Assembly (NCBI GenBank): GCA_946631805.1 | Contig: CAMPAJ010000029.1 | Span: 1-11,354, forward strand | Direction of reading: 5' to 3' | DNA: 11,354 nucleotides | From: an uncultured Eggerthellaceae bacterium | GTDB taxonomy: Bacteria; Actinomycetota; Coriobacteriia; Coriobacteriales; Eggerthellaceae | In this document: piece by piece, positions 481 through 6,447 of the stretch | How the letters are laid out: each line of letters starts with the position of its first letter | Position numbering within the stretch: position 1 is the stretch's first letter | Program-made: the position numbers and the translations under genes | The notes under the pieces: model-generated | Seen by the model: only the letters and a program-made list of their open reading frames with translations | Databases searched by the model: none | What the model was told of the DNA's origin: nothing

Positions 481-1398
481 TCATTCTGCAGCAACGGCGC
501 CCTTGAGCTTCTTCTTGCGATAGTCTTTTGCATCCGCATTATTCAGCTGCACGTGAGTATGGTTACCGCCGACGCCTTCGGGCGTGTAAAACGCCAGCTG
601 AACATCGGTGAGGTCTTTTTCGATATCGCGCACATGGCTAATCTCGGTAATGCCAGCCTCGACGCGATCGCCCGCACTTACAAGCGGCTCGTCAGTGTGA
701 ATGAGCACGCAGTCTAAGTCTTTGCGTCCGTCGGGCTGGATGTGAATCTCGATATCGGGCACGGTATCGTAAAGCTTGTACTTCTTGACCAGGACAACCG
801 TGCCTGTAATTGGGGCGCGCACGATCGTGCCGGGCAGCGCGCCAACGTCGATGGAGGTGTCCATGGCCGTTGCATCTGACGAACGCCACAGGTGCAGCGC
901 ATCGGCATCGAGCCACTCCCCCTGTTCCTGCGATGTGTTCACTCGAATCTGGTGCTGTTTTTGCACCTTCTCGTAATCGGCTTCGGGCAGCTCAGTTGAA
1001 AGGACGTACGCATAGTCGTATGACGCCTGGTGAAACAGGACGCCCGTCAAATCCGAGGGCTGAATGGGGCTGCGCAGGTCAACGCCTTGCGCATTCGCGA
1101 TGAACGGAGTTTGATGCTGGCGGACCCACTCGGCACGTTCCTCGGCAACCTCTTGGTCGGTCAGCACGGTGTCTCCGACCTCGGAGAACGAGTGCCCCGA
1201 CTGGCCCTGCACTCCTGTTGCGCCCTTCGAGCCTGTGTCGAGGCCTCCCCCACCTTGGGTATCTTGCTGCTGGCTTACGCCAATCACATTCAGGATCGGG
1301 TCGAACAGCGTCGGGCGAACAGCCCACATGGCACCGATTGCCGCCACCATGAGCACCGTAACTACGACGGCTGCTATTTCGGCCCTGCGCATGTTCAT
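481..1398 (-). CDS. Membrane-anchored LytM/M23-like protein with altered zinc site
   Basis: This is a 305-residue protein with a short N-terminus, one hydrophobic segment (about residues 8-28, probably an uncleaved signal anchor), a Gly/Gln/Ser-rich linker (about 42-70), an unassigned middle region (about 75-175) and a C-terminal domain resembling LytM/M23 peptidoglycan endopeptidases. Matching features are GT (190-191), AP (195-196), G199, H234, AGDRVEAG (242-249) and the HTH of HxH at 280-282. In active M23 enzymes the first motif is HxxxD; here it reads DTSID (180-184), so the first zinc-ligand His is Asp. LytM domains lacking zinc ligands, such as EnvC, activate cell-wall amidases rather than cut peptidoglycan. 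The ATG start overlaps the rnr stop by 4 bp (ATGA), implying translational coupling. The M23-like assignment is fairly secure; loss of activity is inferred, since Asp can sometimes bind zinc. The exact function is unknown. Confidence 0.75.
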   Translation of the reverse strand: MNMRRAEIAAVVVTVLMVAAIGAMWAVRPTLFDPILNVIGVSQQQDTQGGGGLDTGSKGATGVQGQSGHSFSEVGDTVLTDQEVAEERAEWVRQHQTPFIANAQGVDLRSPIQPSDLTGVLFHQASYDYAYVLSTELPEADYEKVQKQHQIRVNTSQEQGEWLDADALHLWRSSDATAMDTSIDVGALPGTIVRAPITGTVVLVKKYKLYDTVPDIEIHIQPDGRKDLDCVLIHTDEPLVSAGDRVEAGITEISHVRDIEKDLTDVQLAFYTPEGVGGNHTHVQLNNADAKDYRKKKLKGAVAAE

Positions 1399-3413
1399 GA
1401 GAGCAGCCTGAACTTGAGCGACCGCATTCGCACGTCTGCTTCGATGAGCCGCACGGCCACGCGTTTGCCCAAACGGTATTCCTTGCCGGTATCGGACCCC
1501 GTCAACGTATGGCGCACGGGATCGAGGGCGAAGTATTCACGACCCAAATCCGCCATCTCCACCAGGCCCTCTGCCGTGTTATCAAGACGCACGAACAACC
1601 CGTAAGTCGCCACGCCGGCAATCATGGCCGGGAACGTTTCGCCAACATGGGACTCCATGAGCTCGATTATCTTGACTTCCTGGGACTCCTGGGCAGCTCT
1701 TTCGGCGACGCGTTCCATCTCGGATGAATGCTCGGCGATCCACGAGAGGTTCGAAACCTCCTGGTCGAATTTCTCGGGCCTGCCCATAAGAGCCGCCTTG
1801 AGCATGCGATGCACTACAAGGTCGGGGTAGCGCCTGATAGGCGATGTGAAATGAGCATACGCCTCGCTCGCGAGAGCGTAATGCTCGCCTAGCTCGGGCT
1901 CGTAAAGAGCACGTTTCATCGAACGGAGCACGAGCGTCGTGACGAGCGGACCTTCGGAACGGCCTGAGCACTGCTCCAAAACGCGTGCGATCACATGGGG
2001 GTTGCCGCTCGCGAACGCCTCCGCATCCATGCGCTTGAACCACGGGAACTCCTGCAGCACGGGCAACAGGCCCGACAAGCTCTCGTGCGAGGGCTTGTCG
2101 TGAGTACGGTAGATGCAGGGAAATCCGGCGTCTCGCAGATACCGCGCAACCGCCTCGTTTGCCGCAATCATAGCCTCCTCGATGAGCTGCGTGGCATCGG
2201 TCCGTTTTCGTATGGAAATAGCCAGGGGCGCCCCCGCCTCGTCGAGCTGCACTTTCGCTTCGACGGTATCGAAATCGATGCCGCCCGCGCCGTCCCGCAA
2301 CTGCTTGCGCTTCTTCGCTAGCCGAGAAAGCTCGCGGATACGCCACGAGAGCCCCTCGCGTAGCTCTTCTGCCACATTGGGCAATCCCTCCCCATCCGAA
2401 CGCGCATCGATAAACGCTTGCGCCTGTTCGTAGGTAAGGCGCGCACGCGACCGAATAACGGCAGGGTAGATATCGACATCTGCAACTAAACCCGACGCGT
2501 CGAGATACAAATCGACCGTCATGCTCCTGCGCTCCTCGTTGGGTTTGAGCGAGCACACCTCGTTCGAAAGAGCCTCGGGCAACATGGGCACGACCCGATC
2601 GACCAAATACACGCTCGTCGCGCGTTTTCGCGCCTCGAGGTCTACCGAGCTGCCCCAAGGTGCGTAATGCGATACATCGGCGATATGCACGCCTAGCCGC
2701 CACGCGCAATTCCTCTGGGTGTTTTCGTCAACGCGCTCCAACGATACCGCATCGTCGAAATCCCGCGCATCAAGCGGGTCGATGGTGAATATGAAGCGCT
2801 CCCGCAAATCGACGTAGCCGTTTTGCAGGGCATCCTCAGCGTCAACGCGCGCTTCGGCAGCCTGCTCGAGCGCCGCCGGCGAAAAATCAGTTTGAAGCTT
2901 GTGGCGAGCCACGATGAGGTCGATGGGAACGCGTTCGTCGTCATCGTCGCCGAGCACTTCCACGATCGTGCCCGTCGCCGCCTCCTTGCGGCTCGGATAC
3001 GTGACCATGGCCACGCGCACGAACGCTCCTTCCGGCACGTCGGCGCATTCGGAAAGCATGGTGAAGATATCGTAGTGAATGCGCGGATCCTCAGGCACGA
3101 CGACGCCGAATGGCTCAGCCCTGTGAAACCTGCCGACTATATGCGTATGAGCATGCTCCACGACGCGTTTCACGCGTGCCTCGCGACACTGCGAAGACGA
3201 GGCGGCGCGGGCAAGCGCTTTGCGCGAACGCTCTTGGCGCGCCGGCGATATCTCGACTACATCCCCGTCAAAAGCTCCGTTCATCCGGTCGGCCGGCACG
3301 AAGAACTCCCCTTCGGGCGTCTGAACGAACCCGTAACCTCCCCGCGTGACCGAAAGCGTGCCACGTGGATACTGATGCGCAGAGCTGCGCGTATGAGAAC
3401 GATTACGCGCCAT
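1395..3413 (-). CDS. rnr: Ribonuclease R (RNB-family 3'-5' exoribonuclease)
   Basis: RNase R degrades structured RNA processively from the 3' end and, in bacteria where it was studied, removes nonstop mRNA during tmRNA-mediated rescue. The 672 residues show an N-terminal cold-shock/OB domain (about 17-57, with GGYGFV and FVPADRMNGAFDGD), a second OB-like segment (about 85-155), the RNB catalytic domain and a C-terminal S1 domain (about 590-672). The magnesium-binding Asp cluster is intact in the motif at 211-221: D212, D218, D220 and D221. The conserved HFTSPIRRYPDLVVHR block is at 521-536. Length is slightly short of typical RNase R, partly because the Lys-rich tail of the E. coli enzyme is missing. 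The ATG start is 5 bp after the preceding stop, with a weak purine-rich GAAGAA stretch as ribosome-binding site. The frame is intact. Confidence 0.95.
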   Translation of the reverse strand: MARNRSHTRSSAHQYPRGTLSVTRGGYGFVQTPEGEFFVPADRMNGAFDGDVVEISPARQERSRKALARAASSSQCREARVKRVVEHAHTHIVGRFHRAEPFGVVVPEDPRIHYDIFTMLSECADVPEGAFVRVAMVTYPSRKEAATGTIVEVLGDDDDERVPIDLIVARHKLQTDFSPAALEQAAEARVDAEDALQNGYVDLRERFIFTIDPLDARDFDDAVSLERVDENTQRNCAWRLGVHIADVSHYAPWGSSVDLEARKRATSVYLVDRVVPMLPEALSNEVCSLKPNEERRSMTVDLYLDASGLVADVDIYPAVIRSRARLTYEQAQAFIDARSDGEGLPNVAEELREGLSWRIRELSRLAKKRKQLRDGAGGIDFDTVEAKVQLDEAGAPLAISIRKRTDATQLIEEAMIAANEAVARYLRDAGFPCIYRTHDKPSHESLSGLLPVLQEFPWFKRMDAEAFASGNPHVIARVLEQCSGRSEGPLVTTLVLRSMKRALYEPELGEHYALASEAYAHFTSPIRRYPDLVVHRMLKAALMGRPEKFDQEVSNLSWIAEHSSEMERVAERAAQESQEVKIIELMESHVGETFPAMIAGVATYGLFVRLDNTAEGLVEMADLGREYFALDPVRHTLTGSDTGKEYRLGKRVAVRLIEADVRMRSLKFRLLS

Positions 3414-3418
3414 GGGAA

Positions 3419-4711
3419 TTATTCTTCGGGAGCCAACGACTCGGCAAGCTCGAGCGCGTAGCTCTTCTGCGTCTTCGCCGCCGCTTCGAGCGGGTTCGTC
3501 GGCGTTACGCCAATCTGGTCGATGCTATGCCCTTCGGGGGTCAGGTAATATGCAGCCGTATAGCGAAGGGCGCCGCCGAACGACAGCTGCGAGACGACTT
3601 GCACCGAACCCTTGCCGAGCGTCGTCTCGCCCACAAGCGACGCGCGTTGGCTTTCTTTCAAGGCCGCCGCGACAACTTCGGCTGCTGCGGCCGTGTTCTT
3701 GTTGATAAGCACGACGAGCGGCGCGTCTGTGGTCGGTTGACCCGAAGCGGCTTTCGCGGAAATGCCGTTCGTCGTCTCGAGCTCTACGACCGTACCGCTG
3801 CTCATGAACAGGCTCGCGATGTCCACGGCTTGGGAAAGGTAACCGCCTGGATTGTCGCGCAAATCCAGCACGTAGGCCGCCGCGCCATTATCGGCAAGCG
3901 ACTCTATTGCCGTCTTGACCAATGATGCCGAGTTCTCGGTGATCTGGCGCACTTTGACGTACCCAACATGGCGATCTTTGTCGTATTCGCGCGTGACGTT
4001 GGGCTCGTCGTACTCGTAGCACGGCAGCGTCGTGGTTATCTCCTCGCCCCCATCGGATTCCAATGTTTCGGGACGCCGCCATGTAATGACGACGTCTGAG
4101 CCAGCTGCCTGCGCAAGCTTCGCCGTGACTTCCGAACGAGACCAGGTCTGCGAGCTATCCATATCGACCGACTCGACGAAGTCCCCCTCCTGCACGCCCT
4201 TGCTCTGGGCAGCCGAGCCTTCGAACACATCGACGACGTACGCCTGCCCCTTGTATTCCGAAAACAGGACGCCTATGCCAGCATAGCCTTCGTCCTGCTT
4301 GTTCAGAAGCTCGGTGTATCGCTCGTTGGAGTAGTAGCGCATGAAGGGGTCGTTGGACGACTCGGCCACGGCTGTAAGGACCGCATCGGTCGTAGGATCG
4401 AGTTCGTAGGTGTCGAGGCTATCGTCCTTGATTAGCGTATCGACTTCCTTGATACGCGCAGACAAGGAATGGTACACGTCGTCGGAGGTCGATTTATCGC
4501 CGGGCGTTTGCACCGAGGTGATGCCCGTCAAAGATGACGGAAGGCCCAACGATGCAAGGAAACTCGATTGCCCGCGCACGAAGAAGCCCAACCCGAAGGC
4601 CAGGCACAGCATGATGATGGCCGCAAAAAAGCGTATGAAATGGAAGTTGCGCGCACGCATTTTACGCGTACGCGCAGCTGCTCGATTGGTATTGCCGCGT
4701 CGACTGCCCAT
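3419..4711 (-). CDS. S41-family (Ctp-like) membrane protein lacking the catalytic serine
   Basis: The 430 residues match carboxy-terminal processing proteases. In order: a basic N-terminus, a membrane anchor (about 27-46), a helical segment (about 78-135), a PDZ domain (about 140-212, with GIGVLF and the GVQEGDFV region) and an S41 core (about 245-400, with LDLRDNPGGYLSQAVDIAS, VGETTLGKGSVQ and the TPEGHSIDQIGVTP ending). Known Ctp enzymes use a Ser/Lys dyad spaced 25 residues apart, with a Gln four residues after the Lys. Here Lys367 and Gln371 are present, but the residue 25 before Lys is Ala342 (codon GCA, 3686-3688), within NKNTAAAAEV. The protein is therefore predicted to be a pseudoprotease, possibly a peptide-binding adaptor. 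It lies directly after ftsX, as ctp genes do in several bacteria. The start is the ATG at 4711; M18 is a possible alternative. Confidence 0.88.
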   Translation of the reverse strand: MGSRRGNTNRAAARTRKMRARNFHFIRFFAAIIMLCLAFGLGFFVRGQSSFLASLGLPSSLTGITSVQTPGDKSTSDDVYHSLSARIKEVDTLIKDDSLDTYELDPTTDAVLTAVAESSNDPFMRYYSNERYTELLNKQDEGYAGIGVLFSEYKGQAYVVDVFEGSAAQSKGVQEGDFVESVDMDSSQTWSRSEVTAKLAQAAGSDVVITWRRPETLESDGGEEITTTLPCYEYDEPNVTREYDKDRHVGYVKVRQITENSASLVKTAIESLADNGAAAYVLDLRDNPGGYLSQAVDIASLFMSSGTVVELETTNGISAKAASGQPTTDAPLVVLINKNTAAAAEVVAAALKESQRASLVGETTLGKGSVQVVSQLSFGGALRYTAAYYLTPEGHSIDQIGVTPTNPLEAAAKTQKSYALELAESLAPEE

Positions 4712-4730: not shown

Positions 4731-5666
4731 CTACACCTTTAGGTAGCGGCGCATCGCGAATGCGGAGCCGATGAGGCCGATGATGAGACCCGCCACAAGC
4801 AGAGCCAGGTAAATGATAATGAAAATGTTAGGCTCGACCTGGATGGGCAAAAACGCGAGCGAGGTTTGCAGCCTGGGAAGCGCGAACCGGCGGATGAGCT
4901 CGATGCACCCGATTGCCAGGGCGGATCCGATGACGGCATGCAGGGCGCCTTCCATGAGGAACGGCCCGCGGATGAAGCCGTTGCTCGCACCGACCAGCCT
5001 CATGATGGCGATTTCCTTGCGGCGCGCCATGATGGCCAAGCGGATGGTGTTGTTGATGAACACGAGCGCGATGAACACCAAGAGCGCGATGAGCACGATG
5101 CCGCCGTAACGCAGGTAATTGGTCACCTGGAACAAACGCTCGACGGTGCGCTGCCCGTACTTGAGCGATTTCGCGGGATCCTTCTCGTCGGCCACCTTTG
5201 CAAACAGGTCGCTCGTTTGGATGCTATCGGCCACTTCCTGAACTTGCTGGGGATTCGACAGCTCGACGTTGATGGAAGCCGGAAGCGGATTGCCGCCCAG
5301 CTCGTCCACGATATCGGCGTTCGACGACATGGCGCGGAACTCCTCGAGCGCCTGCTCCTTCGTCGTGAACGTGACCGACGCCACGCCATCAAGGCCCTTT
5401 ATGTACTTCTGCACAGCATCGAGGTCGGACTGATACTGCTTGAATGCGTCTTTATCGTCTTGGCTCGGCGCGTCCTTGACGTAAGCGGTAATGGATACTT
5501 CGCTCTCGACCGATTTAACGATGTTGTCGACAACGGTAGCCCCCACCAGGAACAAGCCAATGATGAACAACGACAGGAAAATCGTGATGATGGAACCAAG
5601 CGTCGTCGACAAGTTGCGGGCAAAGCCCTGCAACGATTGCTTGAAAAAGTAAATGAGACTAGACAT
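4731..5666 (-). CDS. ftsX: Cell division ABC transporter permease FtsX
   Basis: FtsX is the membrane half of the FtsEX complex, which couples ATP hydrolysis in the cytoplasm to control of peptidoglycan hydrolases outside. The 311 residues fit the family: a short cytoplasmic N-terminus, TM1 (about 22-46), a large extracellular domain (about 47-185) that in characterised systems binds the hydrolase or its activator, then TM2 (about 188-208), TM3 (about 238-258) and TM4 (about 278-303). The FtsX/MacB-type cytoplasmic motif [14 protein letters not shown] (215-228) sits between TM2 and TM3. The gene overlaps the end of ftsE by 8 bp, supporting coupled translation and equal stoichiometry. The start is ATG and the stop TAG. 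Membrane boundaries are by eye. Confidence 0.95.
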
Positions 5667-6447
5667 CGGAGCCGTACACCCCCCTCTGCTGGTCGCGCGT
5701 CAGATGACCGCGCTCCAGGGCGATGACGCGCCTGCGCATGTTGTCGACCATCTCGCGGTCGTGCGTCGCCACGAGAACCGTCGTGCCCGTGCGGTTGATG
5801 CGCTCGAGCAGGTCCATGATGCCACGCGAAGTCTGCGGGTCGAGGTTGCCGGTGGGCTCGTCGCACACGAGCAGCGGAGGACGGTTGACGATGGCGCGCG
5901 CAATCGAAACGCGCTGCGCCTCGCCGCCCGAAAGCTGGTCGGGGAGTTTGTCGAGCTTGTCCTGCAGGCCGACGAGGCGCAAGACCTCGGGTACCTGCGT
6001 GCGGACGATGCTGCGGCTCTTGCCGATTACCTCGAGCGCAAATGCAACGTTTTCGAACACCGTCTTGTTCGGCAGCAGCTTGAAGTCCTGGAATACGCAG
6101 CCGATGTTACGACGCAAATACGGCACGCGCCAGTTGCGCATGGAGCCCAAGTCTTCGTTTGCGATGGTAATCGTGCCCGAGCTGGGACGAAGCTCGCGGA
6201 TAATCAGGCGCACGAGCGTCGACTTGCCCGAGCCCGAATGCCCTACGAGGAAGACGAACTCACCCGGGTATATTTGAAGAGAAACGTTATCGAGTGCGGG
6301 ACGGTTTGGCTGGGCGGGATACACCTTCGAAACACGATCGAAGGAGATAACCGGTACCCCCTGCTGCGGGATGTCCTCGGCGCCGACGATTGGCAGCGAC
6401 ATGGACAAATCAGCAGAACGCGCCCCCTGAGTGGTGGCTTCTGTCAC
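5659..6447 (-). CDS. ftsE: Cell division ATP-binding protein FtsE
   Basis: FtsE is the ATPase of FtsEX. All ABC motifs are present: Walker [10 protein letters not shown] (69-77), Q-loop Q120, signature LSGGE (172-176), Walker B LLVCDE (192-197) and H-loop H229, so the ATPase is predicted active. Length is 262 residues, about 30 more than a minimal FtsE, because of an N-terminal extension of about 31 residues before the usual [11 protein letters not shown] start. The GTG start at 6447 is supported by a GGAG ribosome-binding site six bases upstream; an internal Met16 is the alternative and would shorten the extension. The gene begins 46 bp after the transketolase stop with no terminator between, and overlaps ftsX by 8 bp. 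Confidence 0.95.

Follow-up and report, generated by a model that had tools for sequence, protein, structure and literature searches.

A maintained CTP-family protein beside ftsX in Eggerthellaceae with Ala or Gly mostly replacing the catalytic serine

The locus and the nucleophile position

The window, i.e. the whole analysed stretch of 11,354 nucleotides, carries genes in the operon order ftsE-ftsX-S41-rnr (Table 1). The distance between ftsX and the S41 gene is short throughout the clade described below (median 20 bp, at most 300 bp in 71/71 rows), and ftsX is also found within 300 bp of the S41 gene in 80 of the 81 rows that retain the catalytic serine (Ser-type rows). The median gap between the S41 gene and rnr is 5 bp in the clade (70 rows) compared with 521 bp in the Ser-type rows (54 rows). 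At one Ser-type locus (L053), a second short S41-like frame, apparently a fragment of 106 AA and possibly the remnant of a tandem duplication, lies between the ftsX-linked gene and rnr. On the minus strand of the window, the gene of an M23-like membrane protein (481-1398) overlaps the end of rnr. Its Pfam M23 score of 21.8 bits is below the cut-off of 28.7; on visual inspection, its first zinc-ligand motif seems degenerate and the HTH near the end is kept. Among the loci read, the occurrence of this gene 3' of rnr is restricted to the closest relatives (L001, L002, L003 and L159, the last a duplicate of L001), and one more M23-like match is located on the opposite strand in L076.

Table 1. Coordinates of the S41 gene, its residues of interest and its neighbours in the window
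Feature	Position	Strand	Basis
S41/PDZ protein, 430 AA, CTP-type pseudoprotease	3419..4711	-	TIGR00225, PF03572, AlphaFold2 model
Codon GCA, Ala342, nucleophile position	3686..3688	-	alignment to solved CTPs
Lys367, general-base position, kept	3611..3613	-	clade rows 72/72, further rows 29/30, 1/1
Gln371, kept	3599..3601	-	clade rows 72/72, further rows 29/30, 1/1
Glu345, invariant across the clade	3677..3679	-	clade alignment
DLRDNPGG (283-290), S41 core	3842..3865	-	alignment
PDZ domain, residues 144-217, diverged	4061..4282	-	PDZ_2 24.9 bits vs cut-off 27
N-terminal membrane helix, residues ~20-47	4571..4654	-	model helix 9-47 and hydrophobic sequence
Juxtamembrane stretch with R46 and G56, clade-fixed	4544..4576	-	72/72 clade rows
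ftsX, end 19 bases before the S41 gene	4731..5666	-	NF038347 259.3 bits
ftsE, overlapping ftsX	5659..6447	-	TIGR02673 286.9 bits
rnr (ribonuclease R), start 5 bases after the S41 gene	1395..3413	-	TIGR02063 640.6 bits

By descent and fold, the S41 protein belongs to the carboxy-terminal processing protease (CTP, S41A) family. Its uninterrupted open frame matches TIGR00225 (prc) with 221.6 bits (cut-off 218.6), which bears out the statement of an earlier note on this DNA that the frame is undamaged. PF03572 matches with an E-value of 5.5e-46, and the S41 core covers residues 249-405. The AlphaFold2 model has a mean pLDDT of 87.9, with most of the core above 90, and its best PDB matches in a Foldseek search are 1fc6 (D1 protease, E-value 9.1e-30) and entries of CtpA and CtpB. 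The PDZ domain, found at its expected place and confidently modelled, stays below the Pfam cut-off for both PDZ_2 and PDZ_6 (21.4 bits), and three clade relatives that were scanned are each above one PDZ cut-off. The PGG of the DLRDNPGG motif aligns with the peptide-contacting strand P245-G-G-V-L249 of CtpA.

At positions 3686-3688 the plus strand reads TGC and the coding strand GCA (context INKNTAAAAEVVAAALKESQRASLVGETTLGKGSVQV). Alignment to solved CTPs places the resulting Ala342, within the motif NTAAAAEV, on the nucleophile of two of them, P. aeruginosa CtpA and the D1 protease, without a gap. The earlier note's central claim, that Ala stands in place of the catalytic Ser, is thereby confirmed, as is its claim that Lys367 and Gln371 are intact, since both lie downstream in register. 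The spacing of 25 residues between Ser and Lys that it assumed for known CTPs agrees with the published numbering of Prc (452/477), CtpA (302/327) and CtpB (309/334). Thus, the Ser-Lys dyad of active S41A proteases is incomplete in the window protein, with Lys367 present and Ser replaced by Ala342. A shifted loop that would bring another Ser into the catalytic position is ruled out, as the motif is ungapped. Some close relatives have a one-residue insertion between motif and Lys in the alignment.

Distribution and history of the serine loss

The survey covered 396 genomes of the class of L001, a relative of the window; 162 of them were above the TIGR00225 cut-off and 17 had no match. Duplicates (L005, L006, L007, L008, L159), outgroup rows (L004, L009; another genome) and one S41 fragment of 106 AA were dropped before counting. 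In the main alignment, the 72 clade rows, including the window, have Ala (51), Gly (15) or Ser (6) at position 342, and all of the other 81 rows have Ser in this column. Another 34 genomes with lower matches provided 30 rows of the clade type, with 21 Ala, 5 Gly and 4 Ser; a tree placed 29 of them in the clade, and one was too short. One Ala (L254), one Ser-type row (L253) and two Gly outside the clade (L251, L252) were added by reading G275 and six genomes whose S41 ends are cut or remote; no motif was readable in the cut ends of L213, L255, L256 and L257. This results in a total of 103 ftsX-linked clade rows with 73 Ala, 20 Gly and 10 Ser, and 84 rows outside the clade with 82 Ser and 2 Gly. 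The clade rows include L250 (partial) and L254 (half a gene), which are part of no S41 tree; the FtsX of the genome of L254 falls inside the clade in the FtsX tree. Lys and Gln are each kept in 102/103 clade rows. Loss of the catalytic residue is therefore common to the orthologues, and the expectation that Ala would be found throughout an ftsX-adjacent clade holds in the wider sense of Ala or Gly in 93/103 rows. It does not hold literally, because Gly is mixed with Ala and Ser is scattered over 10 rows.

The clade is labelled Eggerthellaceae based on L001, L002 and named proteins; L003 is labelled Coriobacteriaceae. The named proteins come from Gordonibacter, Paraeggerthella hongkongensis, Arabiibacter massiliensis and Raoultibacter, all of them Eggerthellaceae genera, and were found among 240 listed relatives, comprising the best 120 of 5965 and the best 120 of 1164 hits. 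In the nucleophile column, these 240 relatives have Ala (233), Ser (4), Asn (2) or Gly (1); 239 of them keep the Lys and all keep the Gln. Pocket erosion was observed in isolated clade members, namely Lys to Arg in L236, Gln to Ala in L249 and Lys to Gln in P0095.

In an S41 tree computed under a mixture model with the motif columns removed, the clade forms one side of a branch with an SH-aLRT support of 100, and it was recovered again with 101 clade rows. A tree of FtsE and FtsX, which contains no S41 sequence, recovers the same clade (69 rows, support 99) and groups 30 genomes that lack S41 into a separate clade (99), with Ser-type rows beside each of the two. For these trees the Ser-type rows were thinned to 38 of 81 (S41) and 25 (FtsE and FtsX), and 43 rows were read but not placed in a tree. 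In the simplest scenario, an ftsX-linked Ser-type Ctp would have lost its nucleophile a single time, at the root of the Eggerthellaceae clade. A loss-only history of Ser inside the clade was rejected, as it requires 24 losses compared with 7 changes when reversals are allowed; in the S41 tree with 101 clade rows, 9 changes between Ser and non-Ser are needed.

No S41 match was found at the 30 loci of the neighbouring lineage; in 22 of them, the first gene on the same strand downstream of ftsX is rnr. Two genomes assigned to this lineage by FtsX (G230, G302) have an S41 frame beside ftsX with Gly for Ser and with Asp or Ser for Lys. In L251 (1799-2974) Lys is replaced by Asp, and in L252 (3-944) it is replaced by Ser and Gln is missing as well. 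By sequence, these frames are a second, more decayed, predicted pseudo-Ctp in a lineage that mostly lacks S41. Since such Gly-type frames without Lys occur outside the clade, inactivation seems to have happened twice, with wide persistence of an otherwise intact pocket apparently limited to the Eggerthellaceae clade. A single loss event common to the clade and the neighbouring lineage is unsupported because the FtsE and FtsX tree has Ser-type rows beside each, although one of them, L070, is a long branch there. In an FtsX-only tree that resolves deeper forks poorly, the FtsX of G230 and G302 groups with that of L070 (98).

A PF03572 search was run on 71 clade genomes, which had been chosen for holding the gene. 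Each has a single Ctp-type S41, and three of them have an additional remote S41 below 50 bits. In addition, ftsX was looked for in 213 genomes that lack a full Ctp match (sets of 40, 80, 80 and 13). Five of these (G349, G262, G275, G373, G387) have a clade-type FtsX that lies in the clade or at its base in the FtsX tree, and G339 has one by identity alone, with its contig ending inside ftsX. The S41 frame of G373 and G387 is present and cut by the contig end. In G349 and G262 (L211, L212), rnr directly follows ftsX and the S41 gene is cleanly absent, and no S41 was found in the region after ftsX in G275. The clean deletion in two clade genomes and the absence in a third show that the gene is not essential.

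Constraint on the gene and alternative explanations

The median pairwise dN/dS is 0.122 in the clade (18 pairs) compared with 0.109 in the Ser-type rows (19 pairs), with non-independent pairs in both. This value and the intact frames indicate a gene kept by selection, though it is absent in a few members. Together with the clade-wide Ala or Gly, the intact fold and its position as the sole Ctp-type S41 of the genomes checked, the maintained pseudoprotease proposed earlier is upheld: the clade is a real, old and maintained branch of a known family that has very probably ceased to act as a peptidase.

Eight pocket columns chosen by the authors (Asp283, Arg285, Gly289, Gly290, Glu345, Gly366, Lys367, Gln371) are invariant in 72/72 clade rows, i.e. 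8/8 versus 22/157 core columns (hypergeometric p ~4e-8). The same columns are equally invariant in the Ser-type rows, so that their conservation reflects retention rather than gain and could be structural. In the 30 later clade rows, one Lys is changed to Arg and one Gln to Ala, and Asp283, Arg285, Gly289, Gly290 and Glu345 are kept in all. Both glycines of the PGG strand are kept in all clade rows, and Leu292 in 72/72. Around the nucleophile the pattern changes. Position 341 shifts from Ala in 81/81 Ser-type rows to Ala 57, Ser 14 and Thr 1 in the 72 clade rows, and position 343 from Ala in 79/81 to Ala 51, Ser 15, Thr 4 and Gly 2. By numbering, the counterpart of residue 343 in Prc is Ala453, which is described as forming the oxyanion pocket with its amide. 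Some more columns without variation in the Ser-type rows, e.g. 237, 276, 300 and 413, are also loosened in the clade. Constraint thus appears clearly relaxed at the nucleophile and its neighbours. Elsewhere, columns including R46, G56, R86, F150 and Q256 are fully conserved in the clade and not in the Ser-type rows. Arg46 and Gly56 lie immediately beyond the membrane helix; they are scattered or gapped in the Ser-type rows, where the alignment is less sure, and occur in 29/29 and 28/29 of the further full-length clade rows.

These patterns are relevant for the question of what the protein still does. Unlikely, although the strongest competitor, is a structural relic that no longer binds peptide, whose fold has an unrelated role in structure or oligomerisation and whose Lys, Gln and Glu are kept only for folding. 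This explanation accounts for the equal fixation of the pocket in Ser-type rows, for the occasional changes of Lys to Arg and Gln to Ala, for the loss of the gene in a few members, and for conservation of the core outside the pocket (mean entropy of 249-333 is 1.22 in the clade versus 1.55 in Ser-type rows). However, the two ftsX-adjacent S41 frames outside the clade persist with Gly for Ser although Lys, and in one case also Gln, has been lost. Consequently, Lys and Gln are not needed for the persistence of an S41 frame there, and the retention of Lys is not automatic, whereas the clade has kept both almost throughout.

Continued proteolysis, either through another nucleophile such as Thr340 or in Ser-bearing members whose activity toggles between species, is considered improbable. 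Thr340 is present in 71/72 clade rows (Ser in 80/81 outside), but the D1 protease has Thr at this position alongside its catalytic Ser, and CtpA S302A, which keeps a Ser there, is reported to be inactive in vivo. The presence of Ser at 342 in 10/103 rows means that some members may cleave, and the 9 changes in the larger tree are compatible with toggling. Nevertheless, Ser at 342 (6/72) is no commoner than at 341 (14) or 343 (15), which fits a site that merely needs a small residue, and the Ser-bearing cluster P0095 has lost its Lys.

Slow pseudogenisation, with the gene on its way out and persisting by chance, has very little probability. The clean deletions in G349 and G262, the lack of S41 after ftsX in G275 and the mostly S41-free neighbouring lineage are in its favour; the open frames, the dN/dS of about 0.12 and the residues invariant in the clade and not in Ser-type rows argue against it. 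A sequencing, assembly or alignment artefact can practically be dismissed because the same state recurs in many genomes, all four Ala codons are in use, several of the loci lie on contigs of more than 2 Mb, and the motif is ungapped.

Putative function and comparison with known systems

The reading that appears rather likely on balance is a maintained, non-proteolytic CTP (S41A) member, membrane-anchored and extracytoplasmic, which still grips peptide and acts like the Ser-to-Ala variants of CtpA and CtpB. Its parts differ in strength. Without Ser, the S41 protein would not cleave, and going by the sequences, proteolysis has very probably been lost. As the protein has kept its Lys, its Gln and the PGG strand, a retained peptide grip is predicted: the groove would still hold peptide strands and act as a natural substrate trap or scaffold. 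By analogy with the mutants, the chances of retained peptide binding are about even. For P. aeruginosa CtpA, the S302A exchange is reported to abolish proteolysis, and the complex is described with a peptide between the PGGVL and QTV strands; CtpB S309A has been solved with a peptide as well (4c2g). Overall, the conservation pattern suggests that the clade protein, kept beside cell-division genes, now binds rather than cuts its targets.

More weakly, the clients may be cell-wall hydrolases or division proteins, with an effect tied to the co-encoded FtsEX. CtpA and its partner are reported to degrade cell-wall hydrolases, and wall hydrolysis is described as being under the control of FtsEX, which in B. 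subtilis works with membrane cofactors. Taken together, these reports make a client-binding role as FtsEX cofactor plausible for the S41 protein, as far as the operon suggests. A functional tie to FtsEX is nevertheless proposed only tentatively, since co-encoding with ftsEX is not diagnostic of an FtsEX partner when nearly all Ser-type rows are likewise linked. The PDZ adaptor beside FtsEX suggested in the earlier note is circumstantially in line with the tight ftsX-S41-rnr operon and the clade-fixed juxtamembrane signature, but the case for it is weakened by the common ftsX linkage of Ser-type genes, the presence of CC_PcsB-type proteins in all genomes tested and the absence of the gene in a few members. 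CC_PcsB-type proteins are the usual kind of FtsX partner. They were found in 55/55 genomes (25 from the clade, 15 without S41, 15 Ser-type) whatever the S41 state, and replacement of this partner by the S41 protein is therefore unsupported. A more detailed model is somewhat unlikely. Here, a natural substrate trap would use its preserved groove to bind wall hydrolases or division proteins by their disordered ends and, controlled by FtsEX, present or restrain them; cleavage would be off throughout the clade, with Ser re-appearing in scattered species.

Searches of one open-access collection found no literature joining FtsEX with a carboxy-terminal processing protease, none on Coriobacteri with FtsX and S41 or on Eggerthella lenta with 'S41 family peptidase', and no S41 pseudoprotease of CTP type among the matches listed. 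In the same collection, the only match for S41-family pseudoenzymes concerns CtpA. Gordonibacter and Paraeggerthella proteins of this clade are named 'S41 family peptidase', so that a protease is predicted from the annotation although one is unlikely to exist, and no other Ctp-type S41 occurs in the 71 clade genomes examined. The clade is a naturally occurring parallel to the Ser-to-Ala mutants that serve to trap Ctp substrates, and its S41 protein is a concrete candidate FtsEX cofactor of gut Actinomycetota. Matched states are also available at one locus, namely Ser-type, Ala/Gly-type with Lys, Gly-type without Lys, and gene deleted.

P. aeruginosa CtpA and B. subtilis CtpB share the fold, the S41 core, the Lys, the Gln and the PGG strand with the window protein, and probably the PDZ domain as well. 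They differ from it in that the window has Ala for Ser, a PDZ domain below the Pfam cut-off and the clade-fixed juxtamembrane Arg/Gly signature. The ctpB gene of B. subtilis presumably also adjoins ftsX. Another sequence match to the window protein is IRBP (RBP3), a vertebrate S41-fold ligand carrier that uses the S41 module with no known proteolysis. IRBP consists of tandem S41 modules carrying retinoids, has no PDZ domain and belongs to an unrelated lineage. The folds of EnvC and SweC/SweD differ from that of the S41 protein. These proteins are described as working with FtsEX in wall hydrolysis, and the S41 protein is a candidate FtsEX-linked factor by co-encoding. Further parallels are CtpA S302A and CtpB S309A, both reported as solved with a bound peptide, which have Ala at the same position; the CtpA S302A chain (7rqh) reads SAAAAE where the window protein reads TAAAAE. 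However, these are man-made single changes, whereas the clade described here represents an evolutionary, clade-wide loss.
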